Below, one piece after another: positions 1 through 23,938 of a DNA stretch of 23,938 nucleotides; the first letter of the stretch is position 1; each line of letters opens with the position of its first letter. The DNA comes from Clavulina sp. PMI_390 (Eukaryota > Basidiomycota > Agaricomycetes > Cantharellales > Hydnaceae). Location of the stretch: assembly GCA_015039315.1 (NCBI GenBank), contig WIDE01000237.1, positions 1-23,938 of the forward strand, written 5' to 3'. The notes under the pieces were generated by a model. That model searched no databases, was not told where the DNA came from, and saw only the letters and a program-made list of their open reading frames with translations. The position numbers and the translations under genes were made by a program.

Positions 1-295
1 TAGCGTCACTCCGCCGCGACTGTCCAACAACCATGTATTGAGCCGTTCATCCACCAAGTATCAGTGCAATCGTGAGGAACTTCATGATGTTCAGAGCTTT
101 TGAATAAAGCTCAGATTTGTCGACAATCGAACGAGGCTGGCCGAAGTAAATGACGAGGACTTGTTAGGAGTATGGCTTGGTATAGCTCAGCACTGGCGGG
201 CCTGACTCCATGGAGCGATCAATGGCGCGGGTAGTGGGCGAACCCCGTAAGAAAGGAGACGTTTGTGTCGGTAAATGGAGATGAGGAGGGATATG
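1..295. other. Left flank, no gene seen
   Basis: No coding region, RNA gene or repeat can be supported here. It lies outside the left inverted-repeat arm. If the arms are transposon ends, this would be host DNA or the outer part of a longer terminal repeat; the two cannot be told apart because the matching right side is beyond the window. Confidence 0.5.
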
Positions 296-414
296 TATTG
301 ATTGATCTGTAAGTTTGGTTGGCTCTCTTTTCTGTTTTGCTTGGTCTGGAGAATAATACTCGATACCCATTCCATTGGTCTTCCCCAGTAAATGCACACG
401 ACTTCTGATGCGAT
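296..414 (+). repeat. Left arm of a 119-bp inverted repeat
   Basis: This stretch is the reverse complement of 23820-23938 without gaps; the only mismatch I see is A at 391 against the complement of 23843. Position 296 pairs with 23938 and 414 with 23820. Inside 414 the similarity drops sharply but goes on for about 25 bp with substitutions and one indel (a shared 9-base block, TCAAGATCC, near 430-438). The outer limit is unknown because the partner ends at the window edge. Candidate terminal inverted repeat; it could also be a dispersed repeat. Confidence 0.9.
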
Positions 415-820
415 ACTATGCGCATAGGGTCAAGATCCACGCATGGTCATCTCAATTGCCTGACTAGAGCCCTTTTCGTCGCAATGGTGATGCACTGTTC
501 CGACTCGCTTATCAAAACTATACGTCATCGACCACCAGACGCCCTATGTATACAAAGACCCACACCACCTCTTCTGCAATCGCGTTCCTTATACGCATCC
601 CTACATTAATGTATATGCAATCGACATTAATAGCCCTGAAGCAAAATTCCTCCTTGCGCAGTTCCCATTCGTTAATGAACTGACCAAAGTTGCCAGATAT
701 TCGCACATTGGCTGTTTCAGGGTGCGTCTCTCAGCTTTGATCAGCACCCGGTTGAAATCCATGATAAGCCCACATCTAGCCGAGGCGAGAACATAGTCAT
801 TCAATGACAGAATACCATCT
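415..820. other. Spacer between repeat arm and transposase 3' end
   Basis: Holds the presumed 3' UTR of the minus-strand transposase and the weakly conserved inner part of the inverted repeat. A minus-strand open stretch at 518-706 has some protein-like composition (WELRKEEFCF) and could be another 3' exon of the transposase, but I could not find convincing splice sites joining it. Confidence 0.4.
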
Positions 821-3800
821 TCACTTGTGACTAGAGGATTTAGGGACAGTTTCACGAGTGCCAAGCAACTCTGCAATTCTTTGAATATCGTTGTCGTCCA
901 ATGGCTACATCGCTAGCTTGAGTGCACATAAAATCTTTGGGAGCCGAAGTGACTTCTCACCTTATTTAAAGGTATGAAGTGAACCACTGGGTTACCTGCG
1001 GGTATGACTAATTCGTGACACTCGCGGAATGCGGCGTGGCATTTGAGTGCGTCCGTGGACAATAATACCGATGCTCGCGGTCCCCCGGCTAGATATAGCC
1101 GTCCCGCTACGTCTGGCCATCTCGAGTACGGATCCCACACATTACCAGGGAGCTTTGGCCATATTTCTGCCCTCATAACCACCTGAATGGAGTCGGCCTT
1201 GTTCTCCATCTGAACGGCGATGATCTGGGTGATGCGGCCATATTCAACTTCCCCCTCATTGTGGAACACAATGTGAGAATCCCGTGGCGGCTGCAAGTGC
1301 CTATGCCGATGAGCCACAAATCGTAGAGGCCCATTGGCCCACCAACGTAGTTCTGAGATAATGCAGCCATGGATTCCGAGCGCACCTAATTGGATTCTGA
1401 GCAGCTCATCGGGATGCTTGAATTTCAAACTTCCAAATTGCCTTTGCATAGCTTTAGTGTCTCGAAAGACATTCATTTTCGAAATGGGCTTTCGGACCAC
1501 ATCTGGACCATTGGACTCAATCCTGGCCAAGAGGTTGGAAGCAGCAATTAGCTTATTTGTCATAGTACGTTCCATCTCTCCTAAGGGGCCGTCAGTACCT
1601 CGCACTTGTCTGTAATACTAAGCTGACCTGGGCGTGTGTTGCTAGTTATCTCCTGGATATCCCCAATAAGGCGCTCCAGGGGCGCAACAGTGAGATTTTG
1701 GCCAGGCCCGAAATCCTCAAGAATGGGTCCAAGATGTGTCATCCCATGCTGCTTTGGTGTGATGTTTGCGTGAGGGAAAAGATCGCATATCCTGTCAATA
1801 TATTGTCTGATAAGATCTTCATAGAGGTGGATAGAGTTCTGTGAGACGGTCTTGGCAGTTGCTATATGGACGGCATAGACCAAGAGCATATAGGCTTCCA
1901 GATGATCAAGGAATACCCCGCCCTTGGATTGCCAGAGGGGCACAAGCGTTACAGGAAGATGTATGCTCCCGAGAGTAGCCCATTGGCCGGCGCTGAGCTT
2001 TCGATGCTCCTTAGTGCCGACATTGGCGGGAAGAGGCCTTGTCCAACTAGGGAGCGTCATGCTCTTATTAATATCCCACAATAACCTACACGTCTCCCCT
2101 CCCAGGAAGTGTGCAGGAGTTTTGAGAGGTTGTCGGGGGGCTGGCCGCGCCTGAGGAGGCTCTCAATGTTGCTACCAATGATTGGATAATATTGGCTTAC
2201 TTTGGCCTTTATCTTTTCGATGAGGTCCCCCCGCCGAAGTGTCCTAATGTCTACGTCAGAGATGGAAGGGTCTGCACAAAATAATCTTAGCCTCAGTTAT
2301 TCAGACAAATTGCGTATTCAAGGAGCTTACACCAGCTGTGTACGATCGCCTGAAGCAACCTCATCGGTTTGGGCTTTAACTGTGCTTCGGAATAAGCTTG
2401 CCTTGGTCGAGTCACTGTCGGAGACCCGGTTGACGTGTACTCCCAGCCTTGGCTTTCTCGCTATATACATCAAATAAGACCATTGACTCTCTAAGCGTTG
2501 AAAAATGTGCACTTTCCCACCGTTGTATTGCTTGAAGAGGTGTTTCCGAGGGCGTCTGAACCAGCTCCAATAAGTTGTTAAGGCCGTGCAGGACTGTTTG
2601 TGGCATAGAGGCTAGGCGCGAGGATGGTATCCATCTAAGACCAATCCTACATTGATCCACGAGAAAGCCAGTTTTTTCATGACCTCCCCCCACAATGGGC
2701 TAGACAGATATCAGCTTTAGCTATGTGAAGACGGATTGAACGCACTACAGCAACAAGTAAGCTTGCAAGACTTCTGGCTGATTTGTCCTTCTGAGGGATC
2801 GGGATGCGCATTCTATCACATGCACCCTCCAAATAACTGACGGGAATGGATTCAAGAATCTCACGGTTTCCGATTGTAACCATGAGCGACATGTGAAACT
2901 CAGTACAATCACTAAGTGGATTCGAGGCGCTGAACTCGTAGTCCTAAGTGGAAATGAGATATTGTCAAGACTATCTCAGAAGCTTCTGGGCCCAGACTTA
3001 CCATCAGTAATTGTGCTAGCGTTACCTTGTTTCCCGCATAGCGAAGATTCCTTGTCTGGCACATGGCCACGAGTGCTTCTCGGGTGAGAGTTTCCAGCCT
3101 ATTCCGATTCCCACTGAAAAGCGTCATCTCAGCATCAAAGAGGTCCGCCGTAGTTGTCGAATTTCGAACGTCCATCTCTTCAGCGGTCGCATCTGGTTGA
3201 CTTGGCTCTAGACCGAGCAAGTCCGCAATGTGGCGCTCCCATACCCCCTGCATGGTGTGCATGAGATCTAACACCTTACACCGGACCACATTGAAGTAGG
3301 ACAGCCGACTCAGCTCAGTATATCGTACGCCGTATCGCTGGAAATGGCTTAGTCGTGCGGCACGGCTGCGGAGATCCTTCCAGGCGCGGCCGAGCCGTTG
3401 TACTTCGTCGCGGGTTCGAAGTGCCCCATCCATTGCACCTTCTTTCATTCGGGGGCCATCAATCTTGCAGAATGCGCATGGGTGTGCATTCGATGAGAAG
3501 TGCCCGAACCCAGCAGCGGGTAAAGCAGCGACAAGATCGCAAAGTAGGCATGGAACGGCAAGCCGTACAATACGGCCGGTTGACCTGAGGGCAGTTGTTG
3601 AATAATGAACCCCAATCCAGAGCTTGATAGCTTCATCCATTAGGGGGGAGAGAACGAAGTTGAGTTGCTCATTGCTAGGGGCCTCTGGACCACAGATAAT
3701 CGTGGCAAGGAACAAACTTTCAATCTTGAATCGAATATCCTCTGGAAGACTTAACAGAGCCATGAACATCCCGGTCGATGTGTATTTGGAGCCGGAAGGC

Positions 3801-5048
3801 TTCATTCCTAGAGGATGGAACCCATCAAGGTTCAAGGATGCCAACAAATGCAGGTCAGAGCCTCTGCTGGGGAAGAAAGGGTCTCCAGTGCTTGCGATGA
3901 GCTCGCGTGGCCATTTGGCCTCCCAGGGTTCCGAGATCATCGTGCTAGCGGCTGGTTCGGAAGGGATGTAGGACGATGAAGCTTCCAGAGATCTTTCTAT
4001 ATCATGGAGAGCAAGCATACGTCCAATCCAGTCAATCAGACTTTGGTAGATAACCCCACGCGCATTAACGTCAATGGTAGTCTCGCACAAACTCCCAGAG
4101 AAGGGATCATGAGCTCGACTAGAGCATTTGAACGATACTATCCTGGGGTCGATGTTGGAGTGGAGTTCAAAGCATGAAGGACAGATAACAAAGACTCGAG
4201 TGGATGTGAGTAGTTTGAGCCTCGTCATAGCCGTCCGCACAGCCTGGGTGCTGAGTCCGGTGCGAGGGGGTGGGCGATGTTCCCAGTCATCCGCGAGGTG
4301 CACAGCAACTTGGCTAGCATTAAGAGAGAGCGTGCTAGTTTCTAAAGAGGTTTTGCCGAAGAGATAAACTGCCAGGGCGAGAATCTCAGAGGCTGCCCGG
4401 TTGTGCTGAGGGAGCACCGCAGTGGCAAGATTGTAACCTACAGAACTGTTAGATCGAGGTCTCTAAACGAACAAGCGACATACTATTATCAAAAACGGTA
4501 ACACCTGTGGACTCTAGAGCATCTAATCGAAAATGGGACGCTCTTTGGCGAAGCCATTCGCGTTGCTTTCCCCGTCTTAGCTCCTCTATCCAACGGTGCG
4601 TGCGTGGATCTTGCTCAACGAATCGATGAATACAGGCCCAAGCGTCGAGAAAAGCCCTGTTGGTGGGAGAGTACCTGAGGGCGTACGGCCCAGTAGTATT
4701 GGAATCAAGAGAGATATCGAAAGCGTCCGTAGCAAGCGATGGAGGATGCATGAACTCCAGAGGACCTTGAGCGTCTAGCACCCTGCGGCATACTGCTTCC
4801 GCCTCTCCAAAAGCTGACGTATTGTCGACCGTCTGATCAATAGTAGCGGGGAGCGTATTTCCTAGGATGGGACTAGGTGACTCGTTTGCAGCTGCAGGAG
4901 CAACTGGTTCACGATCATCCCGTTTCCTATGAATTGCAGCAGTTGCCCGAGTTACCAAAGCACCATGCCTTAGCACTCCGTCGTCACTACGGTACTTGGA
5001 CCGACCACATCGTGCCGTACGACACCTACAGACCACGCGATTCGTCAT
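821..5048 (-). CDS. Plavaka-type (CACTA/Tnp2-related) transposase, multi-exon, possibly frameshifted
   Basis: Cut-and-paste DNA transposase. Exons that join in phase: 5048-4484, 4437-3002, 2943-2746, 2699 onward, an exon beginning at 2271, about 2083-1628, 1580-961 and 904-821. Introns 4438-4483, 2944-3001, 2700-2745, 1581-1627 and 905-960 have GT-AG ends; exon structure between 2700 and 2270 is not settled. Landmarks in order: N-terminal Cys-rich part (VVCRCRTARCGR); NLDGFHPLG; FLATIICGPEAPSNEQLNF (typical GPxxPSxxQ block); CDLVAALPAAGFGHFSS; LDLMHTMQG; two SAP-like segments (ALVAMCQTRNLRYAGNKVTL and SYLEGACDRMRIPIPQKDKS); LPSWTRPLP; KLSAGQWATLGSIHLPVTL; ITPKQHGMTHLG; PLERLIGDIQ; GEMERTM. 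The Asp of NLDGF, Asp of CDLVA and Glu of PLERLIG are candidate DDE residues. Near 2083-2092 the frame shifts by one base between TSWEGRRV and RLLWDINK, so the copy may be damaged. The last exon (LDDNDIQRIAELLGTRE) is a reasonable but not unique choice. The start is the Met at 5048. Confidence 0.85.
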
Positions 5049-5487
5049 TGGGATGCGGTTCCTGCGTGGGTCGTGAGACTCTGCGAGGATATGCGCATGG
5101 GAGCTTCCCGCCCCTTCACCCTATTGGCGGAGCCCTTCCTTTGTGACTACGTTCGAGATCTCAATACAGCCGCCTAGGAGTCCGGCGGTATCCGTGGAAT
5201 CAACTTCCGCAACGCTCATGGTGCAAATTAGCTCCGTCAATCCTTAGTTCGCATGCTGTCATGGGCATGTTAAGCGACTCTAAACTACAGAACTATTGCA
5301 CACCTCACATGCCGATTCACGAAGATTTCGCTCTCGGAAGATGATTATTGGAGTGCTTAACCGAAATTCTAGGTTCTGAACTGGAGTATCCAGAAGTTTC
5401 AGAGCGGAAGTGTGAGATTCAAAGGAGGAATTATACTCATGCCATCAACGGAGCAATGTATTACAGAACTGGTGCCTCTGGATAGAA
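5049..5487. other. Intergenic, upstream of the transposase
   Basis: Lies between the transposase start and the 3' end of the WD40 gene, both on the minus strand, so it should hold the transposase promoter. No repeat, RNA gene or clear motif was found. Confidence 0.4.
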
Positions 5488-7072
5488 TTAGATAGGCTCA
5501 AAACCCAGAAATACTACATCGTCATGTTCCCAGAATCGAAGAATTGACGCAATCCTGGCGCTGATGGGGAGAGGAATAGTGAGAGAGACAGCCCCAACAA
5601 TTAACTAGATATTGAGCCAGTGAGAGATTGGTGGTTCGTAGGAAAAACTGTTCACATACAACGGCCACCGACAAGCACATGACATAGCGCAGATGACGAA
5701 AATGATAGCCTTGCTGATATTGTGCTGTTGGAGTCTCTAACGTCTCCCATATTGTGATGGTCGATGTGGATGGACCACATACTAGTGTCGACACCATCGG
5801 GAAAGCAGCACCAGGGCCTGAGTGCTGATAAAGATGTTTACTGGTGAGACCTCAGCGGATTAGATGAGCACCGTTGAATTTGCTCACTTGAAGACCCATC
5901 ACAGGCGCCATACCATCAGCAGGCAGGACAAGAAGCTTACGACCGCTACGAGAGCTCCACGCGGAGACTCCTCCATCAGTCCCATGGGCTCCCCACACTA
6001 TGTTGCCATCGGAACTGAAGACCACAGGCTGAACCTGCATGTCTTCAGTGGAGGGACACCTAGCATCCATTGTAGCTAGCCCCCAAAGTGGATAGACATC
6101 AAAGCCATCTCGCAAATTGAACACGGCAGCTTGAACGGCCTCTTCATTTTCAAATTTGATATCTACCCACCCACTACCAGAGGCCATTAGAAGGCTGGAG
6201 TTAGTGCTGATTAGATAGAGACTCACAATCGGGAGGCTATCTTCGAATGCAATGGTCGGATGATCTGTCCAGTGTACGGGTCCCAAAACCTACGAAATTA
6301 TGATGATCATTCTGCCGGACTATTGAAATGGAGAAGGGTGGACTTGCCATATCCCATGGTGAACATACGCAGCTAATAGAAGGTTTCCAGTTGGAGAGAA
6401 CGCGATTGCTGTCACAATGACTTCTAGAGAGTGATCGGATGGTGGGCTGCGGTCGATGGTCACAAGGCTTTGCCATGTGTCGATTGTATCTATAGAGATT
6501 TTTTGTCATATGATGGGCTAATTTTATTAGATAGAACGAGCGAGCGAGAGAGACGTACTATTATAGCCCCAGATGACAATGGTTTGCTGAGATGTCGCCG
6601 CAACTCGACGTGTGTCAGAAGAGACTGCGAGGGATTCAATAGCGCGTAATTGCTCGCACGACGGCACGATGAGGAAACGCTGCTGGGTCGGCTAGGATCA
6701 AATGTTCAATGTCTTCGTCCTCCAGAAAACATCGTGGATAGGAGCGCAACTAACCAGACGGAGGTGGCCATCTGCGAAGGCTGCAATGATGCCAGCCTCA
6801 GTTCCGAACGTCTTGTGCAGGGGACTTCCATGTAGCCAGGGAAGGGAGTGCCATTGAAGGACCGTGAAACTGACGGTGTTGAGATTGTCCTGCCCAACGG
6901 TATGGTGGTGAAACGGTTTCTGATCCGTCGAGCTCGACGTTGAGTACACCACAATATTCCCATCACTTGATCCCACAGCTAGCTGATCGCCATTCGGGGA
7001 GAAGCAGTAGGCCTTAGGCCAGCAAGCACCGCTAAGAGTAATAGTTCCCCTTCGGAGGGCCACAAAAGGCAT
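5488..7072 (-). CDS. WD40-repeat-like protein with C-terminal hydrophobic segment, 407 aa
   Basis: Seven exons join with consistent phase into 407 codons plus a stop: 7072-6755, 6691-6559, 6489-6348, 6289-6227, 6173-5888, 5824-5660 and 5604-5488. Introns are 53-69 nt; the third (6290-6347) appears to be GC-AG with a GCAAGT donor, the rest GT-AG. Repeated beta-propeller signatures are visible: AYCFSPNGDQLAVGSSDGNI, IESLAVSSDTRRVAA followed by QTIVIW, AIAFSPTGNLLLAA then IWFWDPYTGQIIRP, PVVFSSDGNIVWGAHGTDGG, and STITIWE. After the propeller comes a hydrophobic stretch built by splicing (CLSVAVLIVGAVSLTIPLPI), probably a membrane anchor, then an acidic tail ending VFLGFEPI. The start ATG has an A-rich CCACCAA context and no upstream in-frame alternative was needed. 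WD40 propellers are binding scaffolds; the partner is unknown. The frame is intact, so it is probably a working gene. Confidence 0.8.
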
Positions 7073-8041
7073 TTGGTGGCGGGTACGACAAACACGAGGT
7101 CAACGAATACAAGGCAAAGGCCGGCGCCGCTCCTGTGGCGTTACTCCTCACCTCTGGAGAGGGATTAAGTTTTATGAGCTTGCTGTGCACTATAATCTGT
7201 TAGCATCCTGAAACGCAAAACCTGCGACAGTCTCGAATATTTTAAGAGTCACTAGTCCAAAGCAGTACTGTGGAGGCACCCTAAGGAACTTTTATCTCCT
7301 AGAGAGGACCAGCGCTGCCTAGCACAGCCGGAGAATATAACTGGCTCAGGCTAGTAGCTATGCAGTCGGGACTAGCATTATAACGCGCGAGTAATTTCCA
7401 GTCAAAGTATAGGCATTCTTGTCTAAGCGAGAATTTTGTCCCATGGATTCGGATCACCGAAAGACATGTCGTGACGACCCATATTGTGAGATTCGCCCCA
7501 ACGCCGAAGCTGGGAATACGCTCTAGTGGCCCTTATGGATGAAAGGGGACCAGTACTGTGATTACGATGTCTACGCATACATGACGAGAGTGTCCACTTC
7601 GGCGAAGTTACCACACTCGCTATTCTATATGGCGCAGCTGGTGTAGTCTAATGATTGTCCAGACGTGACGATGCTGTATGAAATTGTAAAGCACGTCGTT
7701 GTGAGGAATTCAAACGAAGGATTACAAGGCGTTACCAGTCGTGAGGAATATTAATATATTGTGACACATACCTTGGGAAGTATGCACACTACCAGTTCAA
7801 TCAAGACCCCACAGTGATGAACGTAAATTCAACCATTCTTGAAAGAGTCGAGTCAAGCATGTTGACTCAACATGCATTGGAGACACGAAGACCCATGGTC
7901 CCAGAACCAGCTAATAGATTACGACTCACCAGCCTCTCATCTACCAATGATGCTACTAAAAGTAAGCGGGCCCCGCCAAGTCCCTCTACAAATAAAGGAA
8001 GGAAAACAGACGGAATGCAGGACTAATGTCAAAGAAAGTAA
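7073..8041. other. Intergenic, no gene supported
   Basis: Several short open frames on both strands lack recognisable motifs and do not join through plausible introns. The right edge is the 3' side of a minus-strand LINE fragment, so part of it may be LINE tail sequence. Nothing else is supported. Confidence 0.4.
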
Positions 8042-8545
8042 TCAATCAAAGCAGGAATCGTTCGTAAGAGGAGGGAGTTGGATTCGAGCCGTCTGCCCCC
8101 ATATACGGCCGGCGAGATGGATGGAAGCGGTATGGAGTGTTTGAGCGAGCTTCCCGTAAACTTTTGGGGCGGATGGCCTGGGGAGTACATCATGTAGCAA
8201 GGGGATGTGTCCCACGTAGTAGCGCGTCTGTCCCGTCGCCCAAACGTCATCATTGTCGGAGAATAAGTGTGAGATGAGGGAGGACATCTTGGCTCTGTGG
8301 GGCTCTGGTAGGTCCTTGACAAGCTTGGCGAGCTGCTGTTGGAGCCAAGAACTTGCTTCAAGACAGAGGGAATTTGAGTGGGGACAGTGAACAAATATAT
8401 GGTGCATGGTTTCTCGTGAGGCGCCGCAGCCAAAGCGACAAGCTGGTGAAGATGTCATTCTCCGCGTAAACAGGGTGTCAGCCGTCGGTAGCTGGCCGGA
8501 GCGACTCTGGAGTTGGACAGTCGTAACGTAGCCTGGTGCCGCGCT
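8042..8545 (-). mobile_element. Non-LTR retrotransposon (LINE) 3'-end remnant
   Basis: The minus strand encodes the extreme C-terminus of a fungal LINE polyprotein. Read from about 8540: LQSRSGQLPTADTLFTRR, then CRFGCGASRETMHHIFVHC, the Cys/His tail typical after reverse transcriptase/RNase H in basidiomycete elements, then HLAGRIWGQTARIQL before the stop at 8042. The frame is open for about 165 codons from around 8536 but the rest of the element is missing, so it is a truncated copy. It lies directly against the truncated 5' edge of the FAS copy, on the opposite strand. Confidence 0.65.
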
Positions 8546-8734
8546 GAAACCAAACAGAACACAACAGAAACAGAAACCTCATTTTCATTCGCCGTGAAGA
8601 TGAGTTTTCTCGCGGCCCCGATGCGATGCTTTGGACTTCTTCCCTCAGACTCAAACGTGACTCATAATCCATCGTTCGCCAAATCATGACTGACTGACAC
8701 AAATTCGCGCCGTTCTTTTTTCTGCACCGATTTA

Positions 8735-11700
8735 GGCTCGGATCTGCGCTCGATCTGCGACCAGAGGTTCATCTTCCCTCTCAACTGGAACACGGCCACC
8801 AGCTTTCCGAGACCAATACTCATGCCGTCGATTTCGGCCCTGGCAGCGTCTCTAGTATCGATCCTCTCACTGTCCGTAACTTCAAGGGCCGCGGTGTCCG
8901 CGTGGTTGTTCTCTGAGAGAAGGGCAAGGACGAGGACTGGTGGCCCAAGACGTGGACCCCTCGGCTCGTCAATACTCGATTAGTACTAATTTTCTTGCCT
9001 TCCGTTCATGTTTAGATGCTGATGATACTCTTTGTTCTTAGTGATGGAAAGATCCAGATCGACTCGACCTTCTCGCGTCTGCTCGGCAACCCTCCCGTCA
9101 TGGACGCTGATATGACTCTTTAACCGTGAAGGCTGGCTTCGTCAGCGCCATTCTCACCGCTGGCTACCCCGCTAAGCCTGCCGGCGGTGGCCATTACAAT
9201 GCCGCTGCTCTGCGTGCCAAGATCGCAGAGATTCAGACTCTCATCCCTGCTAGAGTTGGCATTACGCTGAACTCGCTCTACATCAACATTTGCCAGTTCA
9301 ACTTCCAGTTCCCTCTGTGGCAGGAGGTGAAGCGTGAGGGCCTCCCCATCGGGGGCTTCTGCGTTGCTGCTGGTATTCCAGCACTGAGAAGGCTGCTGAG
9401 ATCACTGATGGCCTGCGCTCGTGCGGCATCAAGCACGTCGCGTTCAAGCCCGGCTCGGTTGACGGTATCCATCAGGTTGTAGCCATCGCTGCTGCCAACC
9501 CCGACTTCGCCATCATCATGCAGTAGACCCGTAGTCTTGCAGGTAGTCATCACTCGTACGAGGACTTCCACCAGCCTATCCTTGCGACCTGCGGCTCCAT
9601 CCGCCAACATCCCAATATCTCCCTCGTCGGTGGCTCCGGCTTTGGTGATGGCGAGAGCGTCTGGCCCTACATGGCGGTGAATGGTCGACCGCGCTCGGTG
9701 TGCAGCCCATGCCTTACAATGGTGTCCTCTTTGGTTCGTTGGCGATGAGTTCCAAGGAGGCTCAAGCCTCTGAGAGTGCCAAGCAGCTCCTCGTTCAGGC
9801 ATCTGGTGTTGACGACGACAAGTGGGAGAAAACCTACAATACAGGTGATATCCTTGTCGTACAGTCCCATCCACAAGATTGCTGACCGCGCCGCCAAGCT
9901 CCAGGAGTTGGGCGAGACGATCTTCAACCTCCCCAAAGAGAAGCGTGCCACATGGCTCCCTGCCAACGCCGACATGGTCATCGAAAGCCTCAATCGTGAC
10001 TTCGCCAAGCCATGGTTTGGCAGAAGAAGGACGGCACCGTGGTCAAGGAGCTCGGCGACATGACCTACGAGGGGACCGTCCCCCGCCTGATGCGCCTCAC
10101 GTACGTGAAGCATCAGTCTCACCGGATCGACCCCTCGCTCCGCAGCCTTCTTGGTGACTGGCTCCACCCCGTTTAGGAGCACTTCGCTGGTGTTAACGGC
10201 AGGCCTAAGCAGTCGATCCTCCAGCCGCACAATGCCCCCAACGACCCCGGGCCTTTCGTCACCAAGTTCTTCGAGATCCACCCCTGCATGCGGGCAGCTC
10301 CTTGTCGCCGAAGACAAGAAGTTCTTCCTACTCATCGCTTAGCTTACGCCCTTGATTCCCGTCCTTGATGCTTCCTTCGAAGTCTGGTCCGAGAAGGTGA
10401 GTCCTGATGTTTTCTACCTCTCCTTCAATATAGCTGACACGGCTATTCCTCTTTTTAGGACTCTCTCTGGGCTGCTCAGGATATCGATGCTGTCTTTGAC
10501 CAGGATCCTCAGCGGGTCGCTATTCGGCGGGGCCCTGTCGCCATCAAGCACGCTCGGGTTGCCATCCAGCCCATTAAGGATATGCTGGGTGGTGTTGTGC
10601 AGTGTGCCATCAAGAAGCTGCCCGAGACTCAGCAAGGCGGAGACTCAGCAAGGTACCCACATCCGCTCGACCCATGCCAGTGTCCTTGACCTCGCCATCT
10701 CCTATGCTATTGACGTCTCGACCTCAGGTAACAAGACGGTGTACAAGATTGGTTCGTCGCTTCCTCCCACCGAGGAATGGCTCGAGACCCTCGCCGGCCT
10801 CAAGATGCACTGGCTCAGTGCTGTCCTCCGCTCCGAGAATATCGTCCAGGCTGGTGAACACGTCTCAAACCCCCTGAGGAGGTTGTTCGCTCCTCGTAAG
10901 GGCCAGACCGTCATAGCTACGTCCAGCACCAACGGCGTCCGTACTTCGGTCTCTCTCTACGGCTCTGCTCATTCGTTCGGTGTGCACCACTCTACCCTCG
11001 AGGCTGTCACTGCTACCTTCAAAAATAAGATCAATGCCGTCACCGTCGTGGTGAACGAGGAGCTCAAGGGGTCCTCCATCCCTCCCGAGTTCACCCTCGT
11101 TACCGTTTCGCCCCCATCCATGAGGTCACCGCAACAAGTGCATCGGCGTTCTACTGGCACCTGTGGTGCGGCGAGAACGGGTCCTCACTTCGATTGGTAT
11201 ATACGACAAGCTCGTTGGCCCCGATGTCATGATCGGTGCTGCTGCCGTCGAGCGCTTCTCTGCTGTGGTCGGCAACCAAGGCCAGAAATAGAAGATGACT
11301 CGCATGACCGAAGTTGCGGCCCCATGGATTTCGCCATCGGCACTGGCTGGCAGGCACGTTCAATATTCGTTTCTTTCTGATAGTCAGGAAGGTCTGACCT
11401 TTCTCGTCTGTTTAGTCCACGATGCGCGCCCTCTTCCCTGACGCCGTCGACGGTGAACCGCTCAAGCTCGTTCACCTTTCCAACGCCATCAAGGTTCTCG
11501 AGCCCTCCAAGCCCTTCAAGGTCGGCGACAAGTGCAGTTCTGAGGCCCAGATCCTCTCCGTGATCAACAGCTGCAGGGCTGTCTCTGCCGTTGGCGGGTG
11601 CTCCACCATGGCGTGCCCATCACCAAAGTCAAGTCCTCGCTCCTGCCCCGTGGTCACTTCGCCGACTCCGAGAACACCTTCGAGACCATTGACGGGTCGG

Positions 11701-13835: not shown

Positions 13836-14229
13836 AATCTTCAGCATCTTTGGTGCTGCTACATTGCTTATGTGTTAGCCAGTTAATGAATTTGTAAATT
13901 CGATCAATATGGTGAACTTCACTTCTTGAAGATGGATCAACCAAAGAAATGCTTTGCCTTGTTGCATCGATGTATATGACTGACACTGCGGACATCAATC
14001 AATCACAGGGCATTATGGTGCACGCGACGGGGCATCACGCCAGAGTCGGAATTGGAACCGGAATTGAGCCAGAACTGATTTCGTGGGGCAGGGATATCCT
14101 CTTCTGGTCTTACCAAAATGGTCTGCGCAAACTGCCGCGCTACGAAGCTCCAGTCATGTTGTCTTACTTCTATGATTATCAAGCATACTACGTCCGAACT
14201 GCTTTCGGACACCCTGGTCTGTAACTCCT
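13836..14229. other. Spacer between FAS remnant and LINE remnant
   Basis: A plus-strand open frame (13949-14224, 91 codons, ending YYVRTAFGHPGL) shows no family I recognise and has no convincing splice partners. It may be more decayed LINE sequence or chance. Confidence 0.35.
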
Positions 14230-15690
14230 CTAATGCGGCGACATGATCTCCCACCACCGCCTCCACGCTTTTTCCTCTATCACTGCACCACTCACCCGAC
14301 AATCACCCAGTACGACAACGACTCCCACCGCCCCACACGGGACCTGATAAAATAGGGGAATTCGACGGCCTCCCGTTCCTCGTCTCGCACCCAATAACAT
14401 AGTGACTACACCGGAAGGGATGGATAAGTCATGTAATACCATGGCACCATGTGGACAAACGGGTACATATCAGAATCCCAAGAAAAAGCAAGAGCCTCGA
14501 TTGAGCTCGCTGAAGACCCAGCGGGCGAAACGTCACCAAAAACGCCTTCGCCAGCTCGAGACGAGCATAGCAGACCTCGTCATCTACACTGACGGCTCCC
14601 TCCGATTCAAACAAGAAGACCAACAGACGGGATCTGGAATAGTGGGCTTCCGCCGTGGCGAACCCATCGAGATCGAAGTTTCAGATGCAGAGATGCAAGC
14701 GTTGAGCGAGAGCGCATGCTACGCCAAAGCAATACTCCACCAGTTGGGAGACCTACATGGCATCAACCGCATCTGGTTCATTGTAAACACCACGAGCGCT
14801 TCAGCGCATCTACAAAGGAACCCCCGGCCCCGACGAAGAGTACTTATTGTCCTTCCAAGACACCGTCCACGCCACTCTCGATCGTTACCCCCAAATCCAA
14901 GTCAACATTGAGCGGGTACCGGCACATCACGACATCCTCGGCAACAAGGTGGCAGACAATCTAGCAAAACGATTATGTGGATAACTCACACCCTCTGCGG
15001 CATTCGTCTGAAGCGCTCAGAAGAAGATCACCCAGGAGCGATGGACTCACGAATGGGTCGACCAGGCTACCAGTGACTCACACCGCTTGGACTTCCGCAC
15101 CACCAACACATTCCTCCCCACTACAACACCCACGAAACGTCTTATCACACCCCTGCCTAAATCTTTCACTCGTCTGATCCAGTGCCGCACTGGACACTCA
15201 CATAGGAAGCTACTATGAGCACTTCCGCGCAACCAAACCCCACGCATGCCAGACACACAACCACATTCTCCTCCATTGCACTCTTCATGCCAGATACCGC
15301 TCCCTACTCAAATATTACAAAGGTCAGATCAACTCCAAGACATTCTAGACACCCCGAAAGGATGCAAGCGACTCGTGCGCTTCATTGCGCGTCCCGGACA
15401 TTCGAAAAACCTAGCCCCGACCTGATAAATGATCCCCCACATCCTCTGCCATACATATCTTCACACCACTCGCCCCTCCCCCGCTCTCTCCCACTTTCTT
15501 AATACTTTTACCTACTCCCATTGCCCGCAACGGGTCTCATGACCACGAAACTCAACCAAACGGCATCGTATTTCCGCTTTGTAACACCCTAAAAGGTTAG
15601 GATATACACTATGTACTTATAATATGGAGTATAGCCCTCGCCCTAAACGCCTTGTTGGTAGCCCAATGCGGTAAAACCGATTTTCTCTCT
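14230..15690 (+). mobile_element. Tad1-like LINE remnant: RNase H domain, Cys/His tail and 3' UTR
   Basis: About 14256-14400 reads as the region after the reverse transcriptase (GPDKIGEFDGLPFLVSHP). The RNase H domain starts at about 14575 with LVIYTDGSL, then SESACYAKAILHQL, IVNTTSASAHL, and after a frameshift near 14815 VPAHHDILGNKVADNLAK. The first and last acidic residues are kept, but the Asp expected in the IVDxxSA strand is Asn. After stops come RLIQCRTGHSHRKLL, ACQTHNHILLHC (zinc-knuckle-like tail) and LDTPKGCKRLVRFIA to about 15400. A non-coding tail with GTTGGTAGCCCAATGCGGTA (near 15654-15673) resembles the 3' end of these elements. Frameshifts and stops make it inactive. Only the 3' third is present, as usual for 5'-truncated LINE insertions. 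Orientation is opposite to the copy at 8042-8545. Confidence 0.75.
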
Positions 15691-15833
15691 CCTCTTCAAG
15701 CTTTTGACATCGTTGGACTAGCTACGAAAATTTAAGGAAGATAGTTGCTCATGGTTTTATCCCGCATGTAATAGAAGAGAGACTAGTTGATATCAACCCG
15801 GTTCGCCATTGATCAAACCACGATACATATATT

Positions 15834-18236
15834 TCATGCAATATTTTTGAATTCTGAGAGCCCAAGACGCCGGCATCCGGTATGGCATCGATGCTCTGTG
15901 GTCCACTCAATGATCTTCTCTTGCCCTTGATCGTGAGATCCAAATCTTCTAGCCGGCCTGTGAGAAGTAAGGACCTTAGATGCGAAAGAGGGAAGGCAAG
16001 ATATACTTACGAATGGCAACGCGACAAGACTACGCAGAAGATTGCTTGATCTTTTCCTTCCAGCCAATGTCCTTGGAGGCAGACGAGTCAGCGGCACTGG
16101 GACAAGATACGAGTAAGGCTGACGCACCATGGAGGTCAGTGAACAGATAACCAGAAAGTTGTAGAGCGAAGTGCTGGAACACAGAGAATAGTTTACTGAT
16201 GTGTCGATTATCAACATTTGAGTGAGATCCGCGGAGGATGATAGGTTGAGCGCTCGGATCAGCGACAGCTCTTATCCCCGAAAGCAAACGTCCGTCTCTC
16301 AATCGCGTAAAGAATGCATCTTTGGCATCAAACCGCAAGTCTAGTGAATAATGTTTTCAGGCATTATTACGAGCAAGATAGATGAAAAACTGACCAGTGT
16401 AATGATTTCGAAACCCTGCGTTATGAAGAGCCGTAGCAAACTCCTTAGCAAACTCCTCTCCAATGACCATGGTCTCCACGAAACATTGGGCTTCGAGCTT
16501 GGATTGAGGACTGTACAGTGTTGCAATCCAATAACGATACTTTTGCTTCGGAGCATTGAAGTATCGGAGCTTCATAGATGACTAGTAAGTGCCTGTTCGC
16601 GATGGCTAATTGGTCATATCACGTACCACAGCGCTTTTGCAGGTCAAGGATGGCGAAGTCCACTCCATTGCCACACCTTCGGTTACAAACGCCTCGAGCC
16701 CAGAGTTCTCGTAATACTTGAGTATCACGGGAACAATTGGAACCTCTGACCATTTTTCGTCCACAAGCTCATCCTCCAGGGATGGATAGGGAAAAGAACG
16801 AGGGTTCGAGATAAGAGAGTGGGGCAGGATTGTTGGGAGAGTGTCGAGAGCTTGTATTGGTCTACTAGCAAGAGCGCGTAGCTCTTCGACCTTTTCTGCA
16901 ATGGATATATTGACTCGGGTCTCCCGTAAAACATGTGTGTCATTCATATCAAACGCTGTGATGGGTTGCGAGAGTGTCATTTCGTTGAGTACGAATGGTG
17001 TCGTTGAGCGTGACAGAAAAGACCAAGAACGCCGTAAGCCGCCACTAAATGAAGCACCTGGACTGATATCTTCCCAGATATCACTGGAGGAAGGACGGAT
17101 ACTGGGGAAATGGTCCTCATCGGACCAGTTAATGTCGAGACAGTATTGAGCCGAGAGGGAGAAAGCCTGAGTCTCTCGAAATTCCTTCTGGGCTGCCGCG
17201 CCTCCCGCAAGGATGTAGACCACATGAGAAACGTGCCTGGATGCTTCTATCGCCATGAAACATTCTCGATCTCTCGCCGAGGCAACGGTAACACCCGGTC
17301 CCGAAGAGCTGTCATAGCTCAGAACAACTTCGGAGCCAGGAAGACGTATTAGTACGGCATAGTGGGCTCCTTCGATGGAGTTACGCGGCGCGACATGAGA
17401 CGCATTTCGATCCAGGATCAGAGCAAGACGATCATAGCGAATATTCGTGCGTTGGTCGGTCACAGAGAGAGGTATCTGCCACGCCTTTTTTTCATCCACC
17501 TTGGGCTCAAATATCCACGTGAGAGGAGCTGAGAGCATAGTAGCGGACGTCAAAGTGGCAGGATAACCTCTGGTTGGTGCGGCTTGAGACCAGAACCTGT
17601 CCACTTGAGGGTAACACACCTGTCCCAACGCGGCTTCAAGAGACCCGCCATGGACGTCGAAATGATTAGGACACCAGGACCGCTCGTAGTCAGCGGTGAG
17701 CTCAATCCTAGGCGAGGAGTAAGCTGTGCGGAGGGTGACTACATTGAAGTAGTGATGGACGGAGGGTGGCTCATTCGATGACTTAAGGGCGGTGAACACC
17801 CACTCCTGAATAATACAGTTAGTTGGGACGGATTCATAATTCCATGGTGGAATCTCACTAGAGGGGAGTAATTGACTCTTGTCCCAGCGATGACAGGTGC
17901 CGATGTTCCCAGATTGTGGGCCAATAGCTCGCGGACTGCGTTTCGGATGTTGCTAAGTATATCAATCTTTGTAGATAGGTCGATGGAAGGAGATATGTTG
18001 CACTGCATCATCAGCTCTACCGCGCATCTAAGAGCCCCTACGCGGGTCTTGACATCAGCGATCCGAACGCCTGTCAGGTCAACGCGCCAGAAAGTGCCAT
18101 GGAGGCTCCGAAGCACTAGATATACAAGAATCTCGGAGTCCTGCCAGCAAGAGTTGGAGTCCCATCTTGGGGCAGGAAAGCCTTGTCGAGATTCGGCCTC
18201 GCGAAGTACTTCGCCACATGAGTTGAAAGGATGCAA
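15834..18236 (-). CDS. Alpha-kinase-fold protein, probably catalytically impaired; 5' end unresolved
   Basis: Six exons join in phase: 18236-17859, 17805-16627, 16581-16395, 16340-16128, 16071-16011 and 15957-15834, giving 714 codons including the stop. All introns are GT-AG and 45-56 nt (16072-16127 has a GTGCGT donor). The N-terminal 500 or so residues match nothing I recognise. The C-terminal part follows the alpha-kinase (MHCK/eEF2K) fold: KLRYFNAPKQKYRYWIATLY, FVETMVIGEEFAKEFATALH, LFSVFQHFALQLSGYLFTDLHG, then FGSHDQGQEKIIEWTTEHRC and HTGCRRLGL. The structural zinc site is complete (His of FQHF and the HxCxxxC of EHRCHTGC), as is the Asp of the DLQG-like motif. The ATP-binding Lys (WIATLY in place of VVKR) and the Asp of the usual TDPQ are not visible, which suggests a pseudokinase. 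TGA at 18237-18239 precedes the first exon in frame and no Met is placed there, so an upstream exon (perhaps from 18240-18450) must be missing. Confidence 0.7.
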
Positions 18237-19099
18237 TCAGACGACCTCGAGAATTGAAACGTGTCGTAGGATAGGCCTCTCACGTAGTTTGTGAAAATCG
18301 ATCTACAGTATCCTCACAATATTGAGTACCTTGAACTTGATGTTGCGTGATGACGATTAAGCGCTCACCTGGGAGGACATTCGTACGCCACACTGCCGGC
18401 CTCACGGTGCGGAATACAATAGTGTTCGGGAAGAGGGAGCGCTCCGCTTGAAAGGAGAAGGAGAGGGGTATATGAGTGACCTACAATGCTTGAGTAAAGC
18501 TACTGCTGACATCGTGAGGGAAGGCGATTCACGAGCAAAAACGGACCGAGCCCCTCACTTTTGGCCTGGAACCGGAAACTGGGTGCTTTCAGAATCATTG
18601 TGTCAGCGAACCAGGCTCATGGGGGAGCATCTCAATAATTTAAATTGTGATGATCAAAATAAATACTAGTAGCATATGCTCCCCTCGAGGCTAGGCGGTC
18701 ACCGGCCATGAGAGATTTGCTGAAAGATATCTTTAATAACCCACAGTGAGCGCGCCACAAAATCGTAGATCTCCCTTGCCGTATCGTCGCGGCTCCTCGC
18801 TTATTCCCGGCTCGAACCTGAAGCTGGGAGTTTATTAACGGCCCGTATCCCGTCCCTGCTGCCGTCAGCTTCTGAATCACATTGCTTCAAGCTGCGCTGC
18901 TCCTGTCGTTGCCATATCATGACCCCACAAATGTGGTTGTCCGCCGCCTCTGCACTCACTGCCAGCTTTCCGCATATCTCCCTAGCGATTCTGCCCGGCT
19001 GACGTTTATGTGTGGCGCTGTATGTTCACCCCAGGGTTAGGCCAGGAGGGATTGAAAGACAAACAGACAACAACACTGGCAGAGGAGTGGCTCCAGCGC
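18237..19099. other. Intergenic; may hold the 5' exon(s) of the alpha-kinase-like gene
   Basis: On the minus strand an open segment reading IDFHKLRERPILRHVSILEV (18303-18243) is in frame with the first assigned exon across one TGA, and TIVFRTVRPAVWRTNVLP (about 18425-18370) lies before a GTGAGC donor. Both look protein-like, but I could not connect them with matching phase. From 18450 on I see no coding signal. The gene at 19317 runs the other way, so this is a divergent promoter region. Confidence 0.35.
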
Positions 19100-19316
19100 C
19101 ACAGCGTCATCAATTACTCGCTCAATACAGAGTTTACTCTAAATGCGAGCTTTTTCAGCTTCAAGAACTCAAATAGCTTGCTCCCGAGCTGGACCAAAAA
19201 CGGGCAGTCAAATTTCTCGGCAAGCCGGTTATGTTTGACGAAACCACGCTCCTCCGTCCTCGCTACTTCGAGCCACCAACAAAGGCCTGGTAACACGCGA
19301 GAAGGAACTTCGACCC
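19100..19316 (+). pseudogene. Decayed coding stretch in front of the Zn2Cys6 gene
   Basis: The plus strand reads LLAQYRVYSKCELFQLQELK, a TAG at about 19170, then LAPELDQKRAVKFLGKPVMF and DETTLLRPRYFEPPTKA, which has strongly protein-like composition. It breaks at about 19287; a one-base shift continues directly into LVTREKELRP and the Met at 19317. So the Zn2Cys6 protein may once have been longer at its N-terminus, or this is a separate gene remnant. The TAG may be a mutated CAG (Gln). I do not recognise the family. Confidence 0.4.
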
Positions 19317-20752
19317 ATGCAAGAACCTGTTCCACAAATGCCTCAGGTCGAAGAGACAGCGGAGGGCTTGGAGGCGCTCCCACACTGGCACCTCACCCGG
19401 CGCTACGATGGCTGTACCCCATGTAGGAAGTCTAGGAAAGCCGTGAGCTCTGAACCTGTCGCTGAAGAGTATAATTATCTCAAAGCACTCCCTGACTATA
19501 GTGTAGTAATCGCACACCACCTGGGGGTTCGCCAGCTCCTCCAAGCTGCTTGCTGTGCGCTAAGAGAAAAATTCTCTGCTTCTGGGACCCAGCCTTTAGT
19601 CGATCTGGCCAGGCCAAGACGAAGAACACGTACCCTTGTATGTCCTCATCAGACGACATCATAGCTACGCCTGACTTAATCGGTCCATCAGTTGTGTTAG
19701 CGGAACGCCCAGATCGTTCGGTCGTGTTACACGACGTCGTCTCGGCCGCCGCGCCGTCCGATCAAGGATTCAATGGACCTGATTTTCTCTATCAGAGTAT
19801 TCTCCCCCCCAGTCCTATGTGAGTCCGCGGTCCACAACTCAGATCCATTGACATACGTCAGAGTAACCATTCACGAACATGCGACTATCATTGTCCTTTC
19901 TTGCAGGGTCGGCCGATCTCCCCACTCCATCAATCTCACAACACCTCTTGATATGTGTACCCTGTTGCCTTCAGCGCCTGAGGTCAACATGATTAGCTTC
20001 AGAGGTAGCGGCGATCTGGAGGTTCCGGTCGGTCACTCTCTGGTTGTAGAGAACTGAACATGAACTTACGCTTTAATAGATCGAGGATGCCTTCGCGCAT
20101 TATCGATTGATAAACGTCATCGATCCTCCGCTTCCCCTCGGCGGAGTGATCGTGGATGTACTAACTTTCCAGTGTACCACCAACGTCTATATGCCCTTTT
20201 GTGGGGCTTTCAATTCGGCCATAACAGCTATGGGACTTGTACTTTCGGTGCGCTCCCGGTTATGTACAGATCTCGATGGTCTGTTAATCTCAACATCTAG
20301 GGCGGTGGAGCAGTAGCTGATCACCTGAGATTCAAGGTCGCCCGCGGTCACGCCGAGAATGCGTTAGAACAACTCATGATCTTAACATCCTTGGACCACT
20401 CGCTCGGCGACCCATTTGCTTTGGCAACTTTGGTATCGCTGGTGGTATGGCGCGTATGTATCTGGTATCTGGCAATCAGCAGCCTATTAACCCTCATATT
20501 CAGCTGAAAAACGCGCAACACGGGCGCAAAACCGGCCGAACCTTTGAAGTTCCACTCCTTGATTTACTCCCGACGCTGTTGCAGCATGCTCGTGAGACGA
20601 AACCAGACTGTGGTATTATCAAATCAGCGAACGTCCTTCATCAGTTCCTTATCTTGTCGTATGATTTTGGTGAGTTGAGAGCATCGATGCACTTGGGTGA
20701 ATACTCACTACTTTCAGATATATTAGGTGGCTGTATCAAGATTGACATGTAA
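19317..20752 (+). CDS. Zn2Cys6 (GAL4-type) binuclear-cluster protein, 348 aa, eight exons
   Basis: Exons 19317-19442, 19502-19818, 19907-20031, 20080-20115, 20173-20258, 20301-20432, 20480-20669 and 20718-20752 join with fully consistent phase into 349 codons with stop. Intron 19443-19501 (GTGAGC...CTATAG) splits the metal site: before it CTPCRKSRKA, after it CSNRT... and CLLCAKRKILC. Joined, Cys 33, 36, 43, 58, 61 and 68 give C-x2-C-x6-C-x14-C-x2-C-x6-C, the GAL4-type cluster with a loop slightly longer than usual and the usual basic residues. Such clusters bind two zinc ions and DNA, usually in nuclear transcription factors. The rest (for example ALLWGFQFGHNSYGTCTFGA, ARGHAENALEQLMILTSL, GRTFEVPLLDLLPTLLQH, IKSANVLHQFLILSYDF) lacks the large fungal regulator middle-homology domain as far as I can see and matches no family I know. 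The start Met is the first in the intact frame, but a decayed stretch upstream suggests an older longer form. Confidence 0.65.
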
Positions 20753-20882
20753 TTCAAGCTGATATTGTTCCGTAGAGGCTCATCAGTGTCATCGTGGCGG
20801 CGGAAATCATATCTTTTCATTTTATTTTCCTTTCTTTTTGGTACCATTGATACTTCAGATGTCGTACCGAACGGAGAGAAAA
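20753..20882. other. Short spacer
   Basis: T-rich tail after the Zn2Cys6 gene stop at 20752; plausible 3' UTR. No feature is seen. Confidence 0.3.
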
Positions 20883-21350
20883 ATGTCATGTCCATGTAAA
20901 TCACAGTCCTCGTCGTGTGGATTCGACACGATCTACGATGATGAGGCCACTCGCTGTCAAAGAGCGCGTCTCTTGTTGGAGTTGGTCAGGTGATAACAGT
21001 ATTCGTGCACTCCGTTGGTTTTCCTTCCTTTGGGTAGTTTATCTACCGTTTTCTCCTATCGGTGACGTGGTCCATAGTTTTCTGTGTACATTAGTTATAC
21101 GTTAGCTTCCCTTTCGGAGGAGGCCGGCGCCGAATTCACTATTATTCATTGTCTGTAAGGACTCAGGGTTGGCCTTTTGAGATATCTCTCGATGTAATCG
21201 TAACTGATCTCTATTGGAGAACGACGAGTTCCGGTAGCGGTGGAGTTCTATTTGTTAGTCGTTTACTAGCTACAAGCGTCACGTGGTACGCCTCAATCAT
21301 CTTCCTACTAGCACTCCCTATTGCACTTAAATTGCAGGTAATGTCACTCG
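20883..21350 (+). CDS. Doubtful small gene of about 70-90 codons
   Basis: ATG at 20883 opens a frame reading MSCPCKSQSSSCGF then DTIYDDEATRCQRARLLLEL to a GTGATA donor at 20990. One possible continuation uses acceptor TACATTAG (21093) for SYTLASLSEEAGAEFTIIHC, donor GTAAGG (21155-21160) and an exon with GGVLFVSRLLATS followed by hydrophobic residues. Phases fit, but several other splice choices fit equally well and I recognise no domain. A hydrophobic run (ASIIFLLALPIALKL, about 21290-21335) might be a membrane segment if exonic. It lies between two plus-strand genes. Confidence 0.28.
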
Positions 21351-21400
21351 CGATCGAATAACTAGCTTCAAATAGCGTATTGCTGAGAGCAAGTCTCACG

Positions 21401-23561
21401 ATGTTTGAAGCTTTACCAGAGTCAACTGATGCCTCCCCATCGTCAAGTCAAGCCTCTTCGTCGTCAAATGACGCCTCTCCAGCCTCAAGTCCAAGAAACT
21501 CACTATGAAGAGTTGATCTTCAAGGAGACGGATTCGGATATTAGTGGGAACTATCCTGAAGACACCACAGGGAGACGTAAGAATATCCTTTCCATCTAAC
21601 ATCCATAATTCCAACCAACGCGCAGTGCATCTGTTCAAGGCGACCAGGTCGGACTGTTGGACTACACGCAACGAGTCCTCTCTTCTGACCCACGGCATAT
21701 CCAATGGAGAAAGAGAGTGGGACGTTCTATCGCAGAGGAGAATAAACTGCGTATGTTATCTTGGTTGCTCAAACGACCACTATGGTACTTAATATCGCAT
21801 ATGTTCCTTGTGAACGCTAGCTGGCGACGCGAAATGCTACATTATGAGCCAATTTCCTGAAGGATACGAGCTCTACGTGCGTGTCAAAGAGCGCCGCGAT
21901 GGCTCGTCTCGACGAGATGCGTATCTGTATGGTGAGATCAAGCGCAGCTATCTGACTGTCGTGCTTAACATACTAATCCAGCAGCTTTAGGTCACAGGAA
22001 CGGAAGTTTTCGATCTATAGTGTCTTTTCTCCCTCATGCAAACTGGCTATACAACGGAGAAGGGCAATGTGAATGCGACCGTTGTCGCGCCACAAGTCAA
22101 CAAGTCTCTGTGGCTCAGAGTTCCGGCATCACGAGTCTCCAACCCACCTCCACAGCGTGTAATCGGCGCTCTACTATTACGAGCGCCACTAACCCTCACT
22201 CCGACGCCATCACCAAATCCTTAACGGTCTCAGGATCAGCTTCCTCAGCATCCTCCCGCCCTGAAAGCCCTCATACCTCAGATGCAGAAGCAAGCGAAGA
22301 CCAGACAAAGGCAATGGTGGATTTATCTACCGCAGCAATGTTTCGGAAGGGAGAGCTTGTCTGGGCAGCAGTTTCGCCGGCGATTACTGATTCGCTGGCA
22401 CACGATGATGTCATCCTGTATTGGCCGGCCATCGTCATCAATCGAGCAGTAAAGCCCCAATGCAGGGATCAAGCGACGGACATCGAGGTCCCACACTACC
22501 AGGTCGAATATCTCGGAAATCTCTACAGGCGATATACGCCTGAATCGGACATCATACCATATATCTCGTATACCCCCCCATCTACGTTGACAGACAATAT
22601 CAAAAAGTACCGGCCGCCTAGTAAATGGAGCCAAATCGATGCGACAGCAGCTTGGAAGGCCTTTTGGCCCATCTCTACGTCTTCGTACAGTCAAGAGGGC
22701 AGCTCAATGTCCGAAGGTTGCTCGTTGTTTGAGGCTGCTATCCCTGCTCTGATCCTGTCAATGGAAATAGCCAACCAACTATCCTATTTATACAGACCAA
22801 TCTTCCCACGGCTCCTTCCTGGGGCGAAACCTCTTGAAATGACTCCGACTCCGAAAGCCCCAGCGGCGGGGCAGCATATCTGGCATGGTCTGATGTGGAG
22901 GGGAGAGCGGATATGGACCGGGGATCTAGTTCGGCTTGGGTGCTTACAAACAGAATGGTCGGACAAAATTCAGGCCTGTCTTGAAGAACCCCTGCCGGCA
23001 TCGTTGATAGTTGGTGAAGGCGTCATGTTTCTGCTCATCGAAAACATTCTTTCGGGAGATATCTCTTCTGATGACGGCCGTGCTGCCTCAGTTTTCATTA
23101 CAGGCTCAATCTGGCAGGCAGTTTCAGGCCGGTGGAATGAGGAGAGGGAGTTATTTCCAGACTCAGTTTCCGCTGGGTTCGTCCTCCCTCCGCCTCCCTA
23201 CTTGTCAAGATGGAGAATGATTTCACGTATCGGGGAGCGTATCTGTGTTCCGGCGGAGCTGATTTCAGGCCGCTACTATCCTCAAATCCTTCATCATCCT
23301 AAACTCGGTGTGCCTTCGGAAACACTGAGTCACTTCCTTGGTTCTGAAGTTTCGAAAAGTGGATTAGTTTTATTAGACATCCAGGCCGAGGTATCCCTTG
23401 CTTTGGCTGGCCTTCGTAGGCTCTGGAATGAGCACCACAACGCCCTTCGTCCCTATCATAGTCACCGCCAGGAGATTGATGAAGCGCGAGCATTGGCAGG
23501 GAAGCTCTTGTGGGAAACAGTTGTACACCCTGCGGAGGAACATAGTAAGGTGGACGGCTAG
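21401..23561 (+). CDS. Clr2-like transcriptional silencing protein
   Basis: Related to fission yeast Clr2, a subunit of the SHREC heterochromatin-silencing complex. Exons 21626-21750, 21821-21931 and 21991-23561 join in phase across GT-AG introns 21751-21820 and 21932-21990. Landmarks: GLLDYTQRVLSSDPRHIQWR; VGRSIAEENKL|PGDAKCYIMS; FPEGYELYVRVKERRDGSSR then RDAYLYG|HRNGSFRS and FLPHANWL (the Clr2 N-terminal silencing domain), with CECDRCR; a Ser/Thr-rich linker; then FRKGELVWAAV, LYWPAIVINRAV, HYQVEYLGNLYRRYTPESDI and a long C-terminal region to 23561 (BAH-like Clr2 C-terminal domain). The 5' end is unsettled: ATG 21401 gives MFEALPESTDASPSSSQ but stops at 21506, while ELIFKETDSDISGNYPEDTT in the frame of ATG 21429 fits the family, yet joins exon 21626 one base out of phase across intron 21577-21625. 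So a single-base lesion or an unseen exon is likely. It is the first gene inside the right repeat arm and runs toward it. Confidence 0.8.
21431..21493 (+). repeat. Three degenerate 21-bp tandem units
   Basis: Units 21431-21451, 21452-21472 and 21473-21493 each start GCCTC and share a CGTCAA/CTCAA core. In the frame of ATG 21401 they encode ASPSSSQ, ASSSSND and ASPASSP; in the other open frame PPHRQVK, PLRRQMT and PLQPQVQ. They sit at the 5' end of the Clr2-like gene and could expand or contract without changing frame. Confidence 0.6.
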
Positions 23562-23819
23562 TTCTTTTCACATATGTACTATCGTTGTGTTCTATACTAT
23601 AGGTTGTCCATGTAAGAGGACAGTTCTTTAGAGAAGTACCTTATATCACGTTGAGATTTAGATCGATTAAAATTGAAGAGCAAAAGGCAGTCCATGCGTA
23701 AACGAGAAATGTGGGCCAATGCACGAGGGCTAGTATATGGAAAGAAACAGGGCCCGAGAGGATGGCGAGGGACTGCGAGACCAACGTGGAGAACACGGAT
23801 CTTGAACCATGCACAGAGC

Positions 23820-23938
23820 ATCGCATCAGAAGTCGTGTGCATATACTGGGGAAGACCAATGGAATGGGTATCGAGTATTATTCTCCAGACCAAGCAAAAC
23901 AGAAAAGAGAGCCAACCAAACTTACAGATCAATCAATA
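23820..23938 (-). repeat. Right arm of the 119-bp inverted repeat, truncated by the window end
   Basis: This is the reverse complement of 296-414 with one mismatch (23843). It starts about 260 bp after the Clr2-like stop codon. The window ends inside it, so its outer boundary and any target-site duplication cannot be seen. Ending inside a repeat is also what a contig break would look like. Confidence 0.9.

Follow-up and report, generated by a model that had tools for sequence, protein, structure and literature searches.

Among the mobile elements described so far, the closest to the locus reported here are DNA transposons of the CMC (CMCT) superfamily, whose transposases are defined by DDE residues with CxxC and HxxxH motifs lying between the second D and the E (PMC12730594). 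Within this group, PlavakaA elements have the termini TGT..ACA and a target-site duplication (TSD) of 2 bp, and PlavakaB elements have CATCA..TGATG and a TSD of 2-3 bp (Kojima, 2025, PMC12730594). In Marasmius oreades the defining domain of Plavaka is Pfam PF18759 (PMC8290104). EnSpm/CACTA elements, with a tnp2 transposase, end in CAC..GTG and make a 3-bp TSD. Some of the fungal families of DNA transposons (KDZ, Plavaka, EnSpm and others) are described as carrying TET/JBP genes, the enzymes of which may undo DNA methylation (PMC12730594). The Starships of Pezizomycotina are also giant fungal elements with cargo (PMC12134995); however, they move by a tyrosine recombinase and belong to the Ascomycota, whereas the present locus has a DDE-type transposase and long terminal inverted repeats (TIRs) and comes from a basidiomycete. 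Large size alone is not new in Agaricomycetes, since the repeat library of M. oreades holds elements of up to ~42 kb (PMC9674265).

The window, i.e., the whole stretch of DNA that was analyzed, is a complete contig of 23,938 bases (WIDE01000237.1, here C151) from assembly GCA_015039315.1 of Clavulina sp. PMI_390, a member of the Cantharellales (Agaricomycetes). The genome searched throughout was that of the same strain (39.4 Mb in 301 contigs, designated by C-numbers), and our comparisons rest on this genome, on protein collections and on published papers. The region from 294 or 296 to 23938 (ca. 23.6 kb) is probably a single large DNA transposon of the cut-and-paste type and of CMC (EnSpm/CACTA-Plavaka) grade, present in one copy, in which paired inverted repeats surround a transposase gene as expected for a TIR DNA transposon. 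More tentatively, and with the odds rather against it, this giant transposon may have captured a Clr2-type subunit of the SHREC complex and kept it as a working gene, giving the element its own handle on silencing by histone deacetylation.

The near-identical inverted arms that an earlier note on this DNA had reported are indeed present. A self-comparison aligned 296-438 with 23797-23938 as an inverted repeat of 143 columns (95.8% identity, E = 3e-48; a shorter alignment, 296-425 with 23809-23938, covers 130 nt at 97%), and the outermost 95 bases are identical. The six differences are unevenly placed, one in the outer 119 columns and five in the remaining 24 on the inner side (P = 5e-4 under a uniform distribution), and inward of the 143 columns the similarity fades. 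Such a sharp inner edge speaks against an artefact of copying and against simple duplication of a segment. Combining self-comparison and genome searches, we place the left TIR at 294..438 on the forward strand (inner edge at about 415-438) and the right TIR at 23797..23938 on the reverse strand, where it runs up to the final base of the contig. The genome returned just these two matches and no third copy of the arm, in a search that skips very common words; a repeat dispersed beside unrelated genes, the check proposed beforehand, was therefore not seen. The terminal 20-mer had one match elsewhere in the genome (C173, three mismatches), as many as its reversed control, and within the window there was neither another terminal 20-mer nor a third copy of the end, so that a compact element ending near 5-8 kb was rejected. 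The left flank (1..293) is single copy, without a long open frame, and retrieved only itself from the genome. With neither the arms nor this flank matching anywhere else, no second copy of the element was found in the genome. A 36-nt inverted repeat (7994-8029 with 20996-21031) was also considered as the ends of a nested 13-kb element and discarded, because each side comes from the 3' end of a dispersed LINE that is present elsewhere.

The gene nearest to the left arm codes for a CMC-type DDE transposase (821..5048, reverse strand; nine exons with GT-AG introns, 1275 aa, no internal stop), with its stop codon 382 bases from the arm. Nearest to the right arm is a Clr2-like gene, the stop codon of which lies 235 bases from that arm. 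Both genes are transcribed outward, and the gene order given in the earlier note was thus confirmed. The D, D, CxxC, HxxxH and E of the CMCT clade were found in the transposase motifs LNLDGF (starting at residue 390), LLCDLVA (486), HPCAFCK (507), QHGMTH (1001) and PLERLIGDIQ (1024), the residues having been assigned by eye, and by the definition of the superfamily the predicted protein would belong to CMC/CMCT. Pfam Transposase_21 (PF02992) was marginal, with 28.8 bits for an exon against a cut-off of 28.6 and 27.0 for the full model, while PF18759 matched the genome at six places, all of them outside the window. By BLAST within the genome the closest protein was a transposase on C140 (E = 1e-18), followed by a tnp2 protein on C246 (E = 6e-9), and the PlavakaB transposase on C269 was not matched significantly. 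For these reasons the name “Plavaka-type” that had been given to the element is not shown to be right, and we use CMC-grade instead. The likeness to PlavakaA and PlavakaB (PMC12730594) lies in the transposase residues, the TIRs and the occurrence in Agaricomycetes, and a terminus of the PlavakaA kind could be read in the TGT at 294-296; the difference lies in the missing match to the Pfam Plavaka model. To EnSpm/CACTA the window is alike in the marginal PF02992 match and the similarity to the C246 protein, but its end, with the outer boundary placed at the edge of the arm, does not read CAC..GTG. In the protein collection, no homologue of the transposase reached E ≤ 0.001 among 7995 candidates scored, and a PDB search with one exon gave a best E of 0.34.

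Only one other transposase of the same subfamily (25–29% identity) was found in the genome. It belongs to an element of 8,104 bp (C140:5462-13565, loci L020/L021) flanked by inverted repeats of 55 bp that are 91% identical, and its contig stops at the outer edge of the repeat, as the window does. The suggestion that relatives might have ends close to the transposase is thereby partly answered, since this 8.1-kb element is the sole relative found. Its transposase points away from the nearer end, whereas that of the window points towards it; the transposase frame of C140 also contains a tandem repeat of ~104 bp. We could delimit two PlavakaB families as well. One is an element of 8.6 kb on C91 (2794-11382 counted from C91:14000, L026/L027) that ends in CATCACC and is flanked by TT on either side, and the other is a family of 6,488 bp with CATCA ends present at C269:443243-449730 and C127:1-6488 (L022), for which no direct-repeat TSD was found at the flanks of the C269 copy. 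The window element, at 23.6 kb, is thus far larger than these PlavakaB families of 6.5 and 8.6 kb. In three of the five delimited insertions (C127, C140 and C151, the others being C91 and C269) the contig ends at the edge of the repeat. The start of contig C127 coincides with the first base of its element because a second copy exists on C269, and the ends of C140 and C151 may likewise reflect a polymorphic or multi-copy element. Four more tnp2 loci (C283, C246, C51 and C239) were omitted from this count because they had no clear inverted ends, the best pair being one of 47 bp and 74% identity at C283 (E = 0.009).

The exact left terminus can be read in two ways. In the window and in the C140 element alike, the left repeat begins with T and is preceded by TG. 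Either the terminus is TGT, as in PlavakaA, which would put the outer end of the window element at T294 with TA as TSD and would mean that the last two bases are missing from the end of both contigs, or the element starts with the T alone (T296 in the window) and TG is the 2-bp target duplication in both. The left end does not read CATCA and there is no CAC at the edge of the arm, where the outer boundary is not certain. On the opposite side the end is cut by the contig, so that there is no right flank and a target duplication is not readable. The arms had been said to enclose the window; they are real, while the enclosure is in part set by the contig stopping at the right arm.

Next to the transposase gene there is a WD40 (beta-propeller) gene (5852..7072, reverse strand, about five exons), which confirms the earlier note. 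Close to the right end of the C140 element there is a WD40-like frame that scored E = 0.0012 and 19.8 bits, below the cut-off of 27. The pairwise comparison of both gave E = 0.003 and a score of 60, with 500 shuffles averaging 35 and reaching 61 at best, and a genome search with the window protein (E ≤ 10) listed other loci without C140 among them. There is thus no more than a hint that a WD40 gene may be common to both elements.

Most of the region between about 7 and 21 kb is degenerate DNA. Its dead copies of a fatty acid synthase (FAS) gene and of LINEs were correctly recognized at the outset. The FAS copy (8584..13806, forward strand) has a FAS_meander domain and is 77% identical to a copy on C238 with many indels (453 gap positions); its divergence of 23% makes it probably old. 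A LINE 3' fragment with a zf-RVT domain (7988..8578, reverse strand) consists of pieces 96–98% identical to C190 and C179 and 90–91% identical to C57 and C262. Another LINE fragment (14397..15695, forward strand) is 77% identical to C129 and, over part of its length, 65% identical to C140:2425-2970, a match that falls outside the C140 element. The LINE piece on the right side of the 36-nt repeat described above extends over 20996..21152. An open exon of 448 aa (16609..17952, reverse strand; ORF-X) has no recognizable domain and is probably accompanied by further exons between about 15834 and 18236. The search for a paralogue in the genome returned only itself, and a single-sequence fold model was useless. 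Two genes formerly listed here could not be upheld. For the alpha-kinase-like gene, three frames gave no Pfam family over the cut-off, a joined model of 661 aa had no match and the fold reached a pLDDT of 29. The fragments that had been called Zn2Cys6 (18986..20752, forward strand, three reading frames) gave no Pfam match frame by frame, with their exons not joined.

Clr2 is a subunit of the SHREC complex in fission yeast. The paralogue at the right end of the window (21429..23561, forward strand; 646 aa, deposited as DL93DRAFT_2234230) matches Clr2_transil (PF16761) with 65.8 bits against a cut-off of 27 (E = 6e-18), and the Clr2 domain (PF10383), in the expected C-terminal part, with 21.4 bits, below the cut-off of 25. 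A family profile of five sequences (the window protein, the host's own Clr2 and three from other fungal proteins) matches, with E = 8e-11, the region of N-terminal motifs in Schizosaccharomyces pombe Clr2 (5ikj). Glycine mutants of the S. pombe residues P137, Y140, L142, H178, L182 and E376 are described as losing mating-type silencing in a growth assay (the L142G protein being undetected), while R170G and A375G kept it, the latter like wild type and the former with weaker effects in other assays (PMC3903592). All six residues whose mutants lost silencing are identical in the window protein, and so are R170 and F175. It deviates by a Met at Leu133, an Arg at Gly374 and a Gly at Ala375, and the host keeps another Clr2, on C35, which at 31–34% identity is the closest of the four relatives aligned. 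The window protein is thus like Clr2 of the S. pombe SHREC complex both in sequence match and in key silencing residues, and from its sequence the Clr2 identity of the right-hand gene is well supported. A single-sequence search of the protein collection found four relatives, itself included, among 7992 scored. The profile found the window protein alone among 7994 scored, missing three relatives of its own alignment, so that this search says nothing about absence. No Clr2 was confirmed in viral contigs.

The arms without a match elsewhere in the genome, their sharp inner edge, the lack of a third end, the outward genes and the like ends of C140 are most simply explained by a single element, and the two arms would then be both ends of one mobile element. 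The single-element claim of the earlier note is supported by this indirect evidence, while a TSD, an empty site and a second copy are all wanting. The strongest points against it are that the right flank is absent, that old debris of FAS and LINE origin lies between the genes, with a FAS copy 23% diverged between arms that differ at one of 119 columns, and that the genes of C140 are oriented differently. Alternatively, the window might contain two remnants, namely a compact element on the left, with the transposase and the WD40 gene, whose right end has been lost, and on the right a solitary end of the same family in opposite orientation, with FAS, ORF-X and Clr2 being host DNA. We regard this as unlikely, although decayed FAS and LINE sequence makes up much of the middle and the elements delimited elsewhere in the genome measure just 6.5, 8.1 and 8.6 kb. 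The right end of the left element would have to be lost, as no third end was found in the window or genome, and two copies of the same end should match beyond 143 bp unless one had been cut there. As to the assembly, short-read assemblers use k-mers of a length near 95 bases. The exact run of 95 bases could therefore have stopped the contig, and an arm that ends at the last base of a contig might be a false fold-back. We consider such an artefact very improbable, because a copied read would not show six differences in 143 columns, unevenly spread and followed by divergence, and because the C140 element ends in the same way with arms merely 91% identical.

Within the preferred reading of one element, the 1275-aa transposase would bind the inverted ends of 125–145 bp and move everything between them. 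The genes belonging to the element proper would code for the transposase, for the Clr2 paralogue inside the right end and perhaps for the WD40 protein, and the FAS remnant and LINE pieces would be insertions or captured debris that enlarged it. Most likely, the Clr2 copy would enter, or compete for, a SHREC-type complex of the host and thereby alter the strength of silencing of the element and of other heterochromatin. By analogy with the TET/JBP-bearing transposons, DNA transposons with a gene that may act on host silencing (PMC12730594), a weakening of host silencing is slightly favored over self-silencing. TET/JBP enzymes act on methylated cytosine, whereas Clr2 belongs to a silencing complex that contains a histone deacetylase.

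Large transposons commonly carry passengers. Clr2, ORF-X and FAS could be such passengers without a role in an otherwise real mobile element, a reading compatible with the single element that we rate as quite possible, if a little short of even. Besides being common, passengers would agree with a codon use that is uninformative and with a single copy, in which selection on the combination cannot be shown. However, Clr2 sits directly inside the end of the element and is open, with its key residues kept at 31–34% identity to the host Clr2, which suggests long selection for function. As for the silencing-factor cargo proposed earlier, it is the identity of the factor that stands; its action for the element we infer from the integrity of Clr2 and the TET/JBP precedents. 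Cargo of the TET/JBP kind is known on fungal DNA transposons, and no Clr2-bearing transposon was found in the open-licence literature searched, among the matches listed. If the proposal is true, transposons would tap the histone branch of silencing too, beside the action of TET/JBP on DNA methylation, the range of cargo recorded for TIR elements of Agaricomycetes would grow, and the locus would let one see in nature whether host silencing is reinforced or blocked by a diverged Clr2.

Codon use and CpG content were tried as signs of cargo versus host origin and were uninformative (GC3 was 0.51 for the transposase and for the Clr2 exon). Other FAS copies lie at C238:219-5949, the one 77% identical to the remnant, and at C100:18253-23026 (71–74%), so this genome seems to contain several FAS copies that have diverged from each other. 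The two PlavakaB copies on C269 and C127 are 99.6% identical, which suggests that another CMC family has been active recently.
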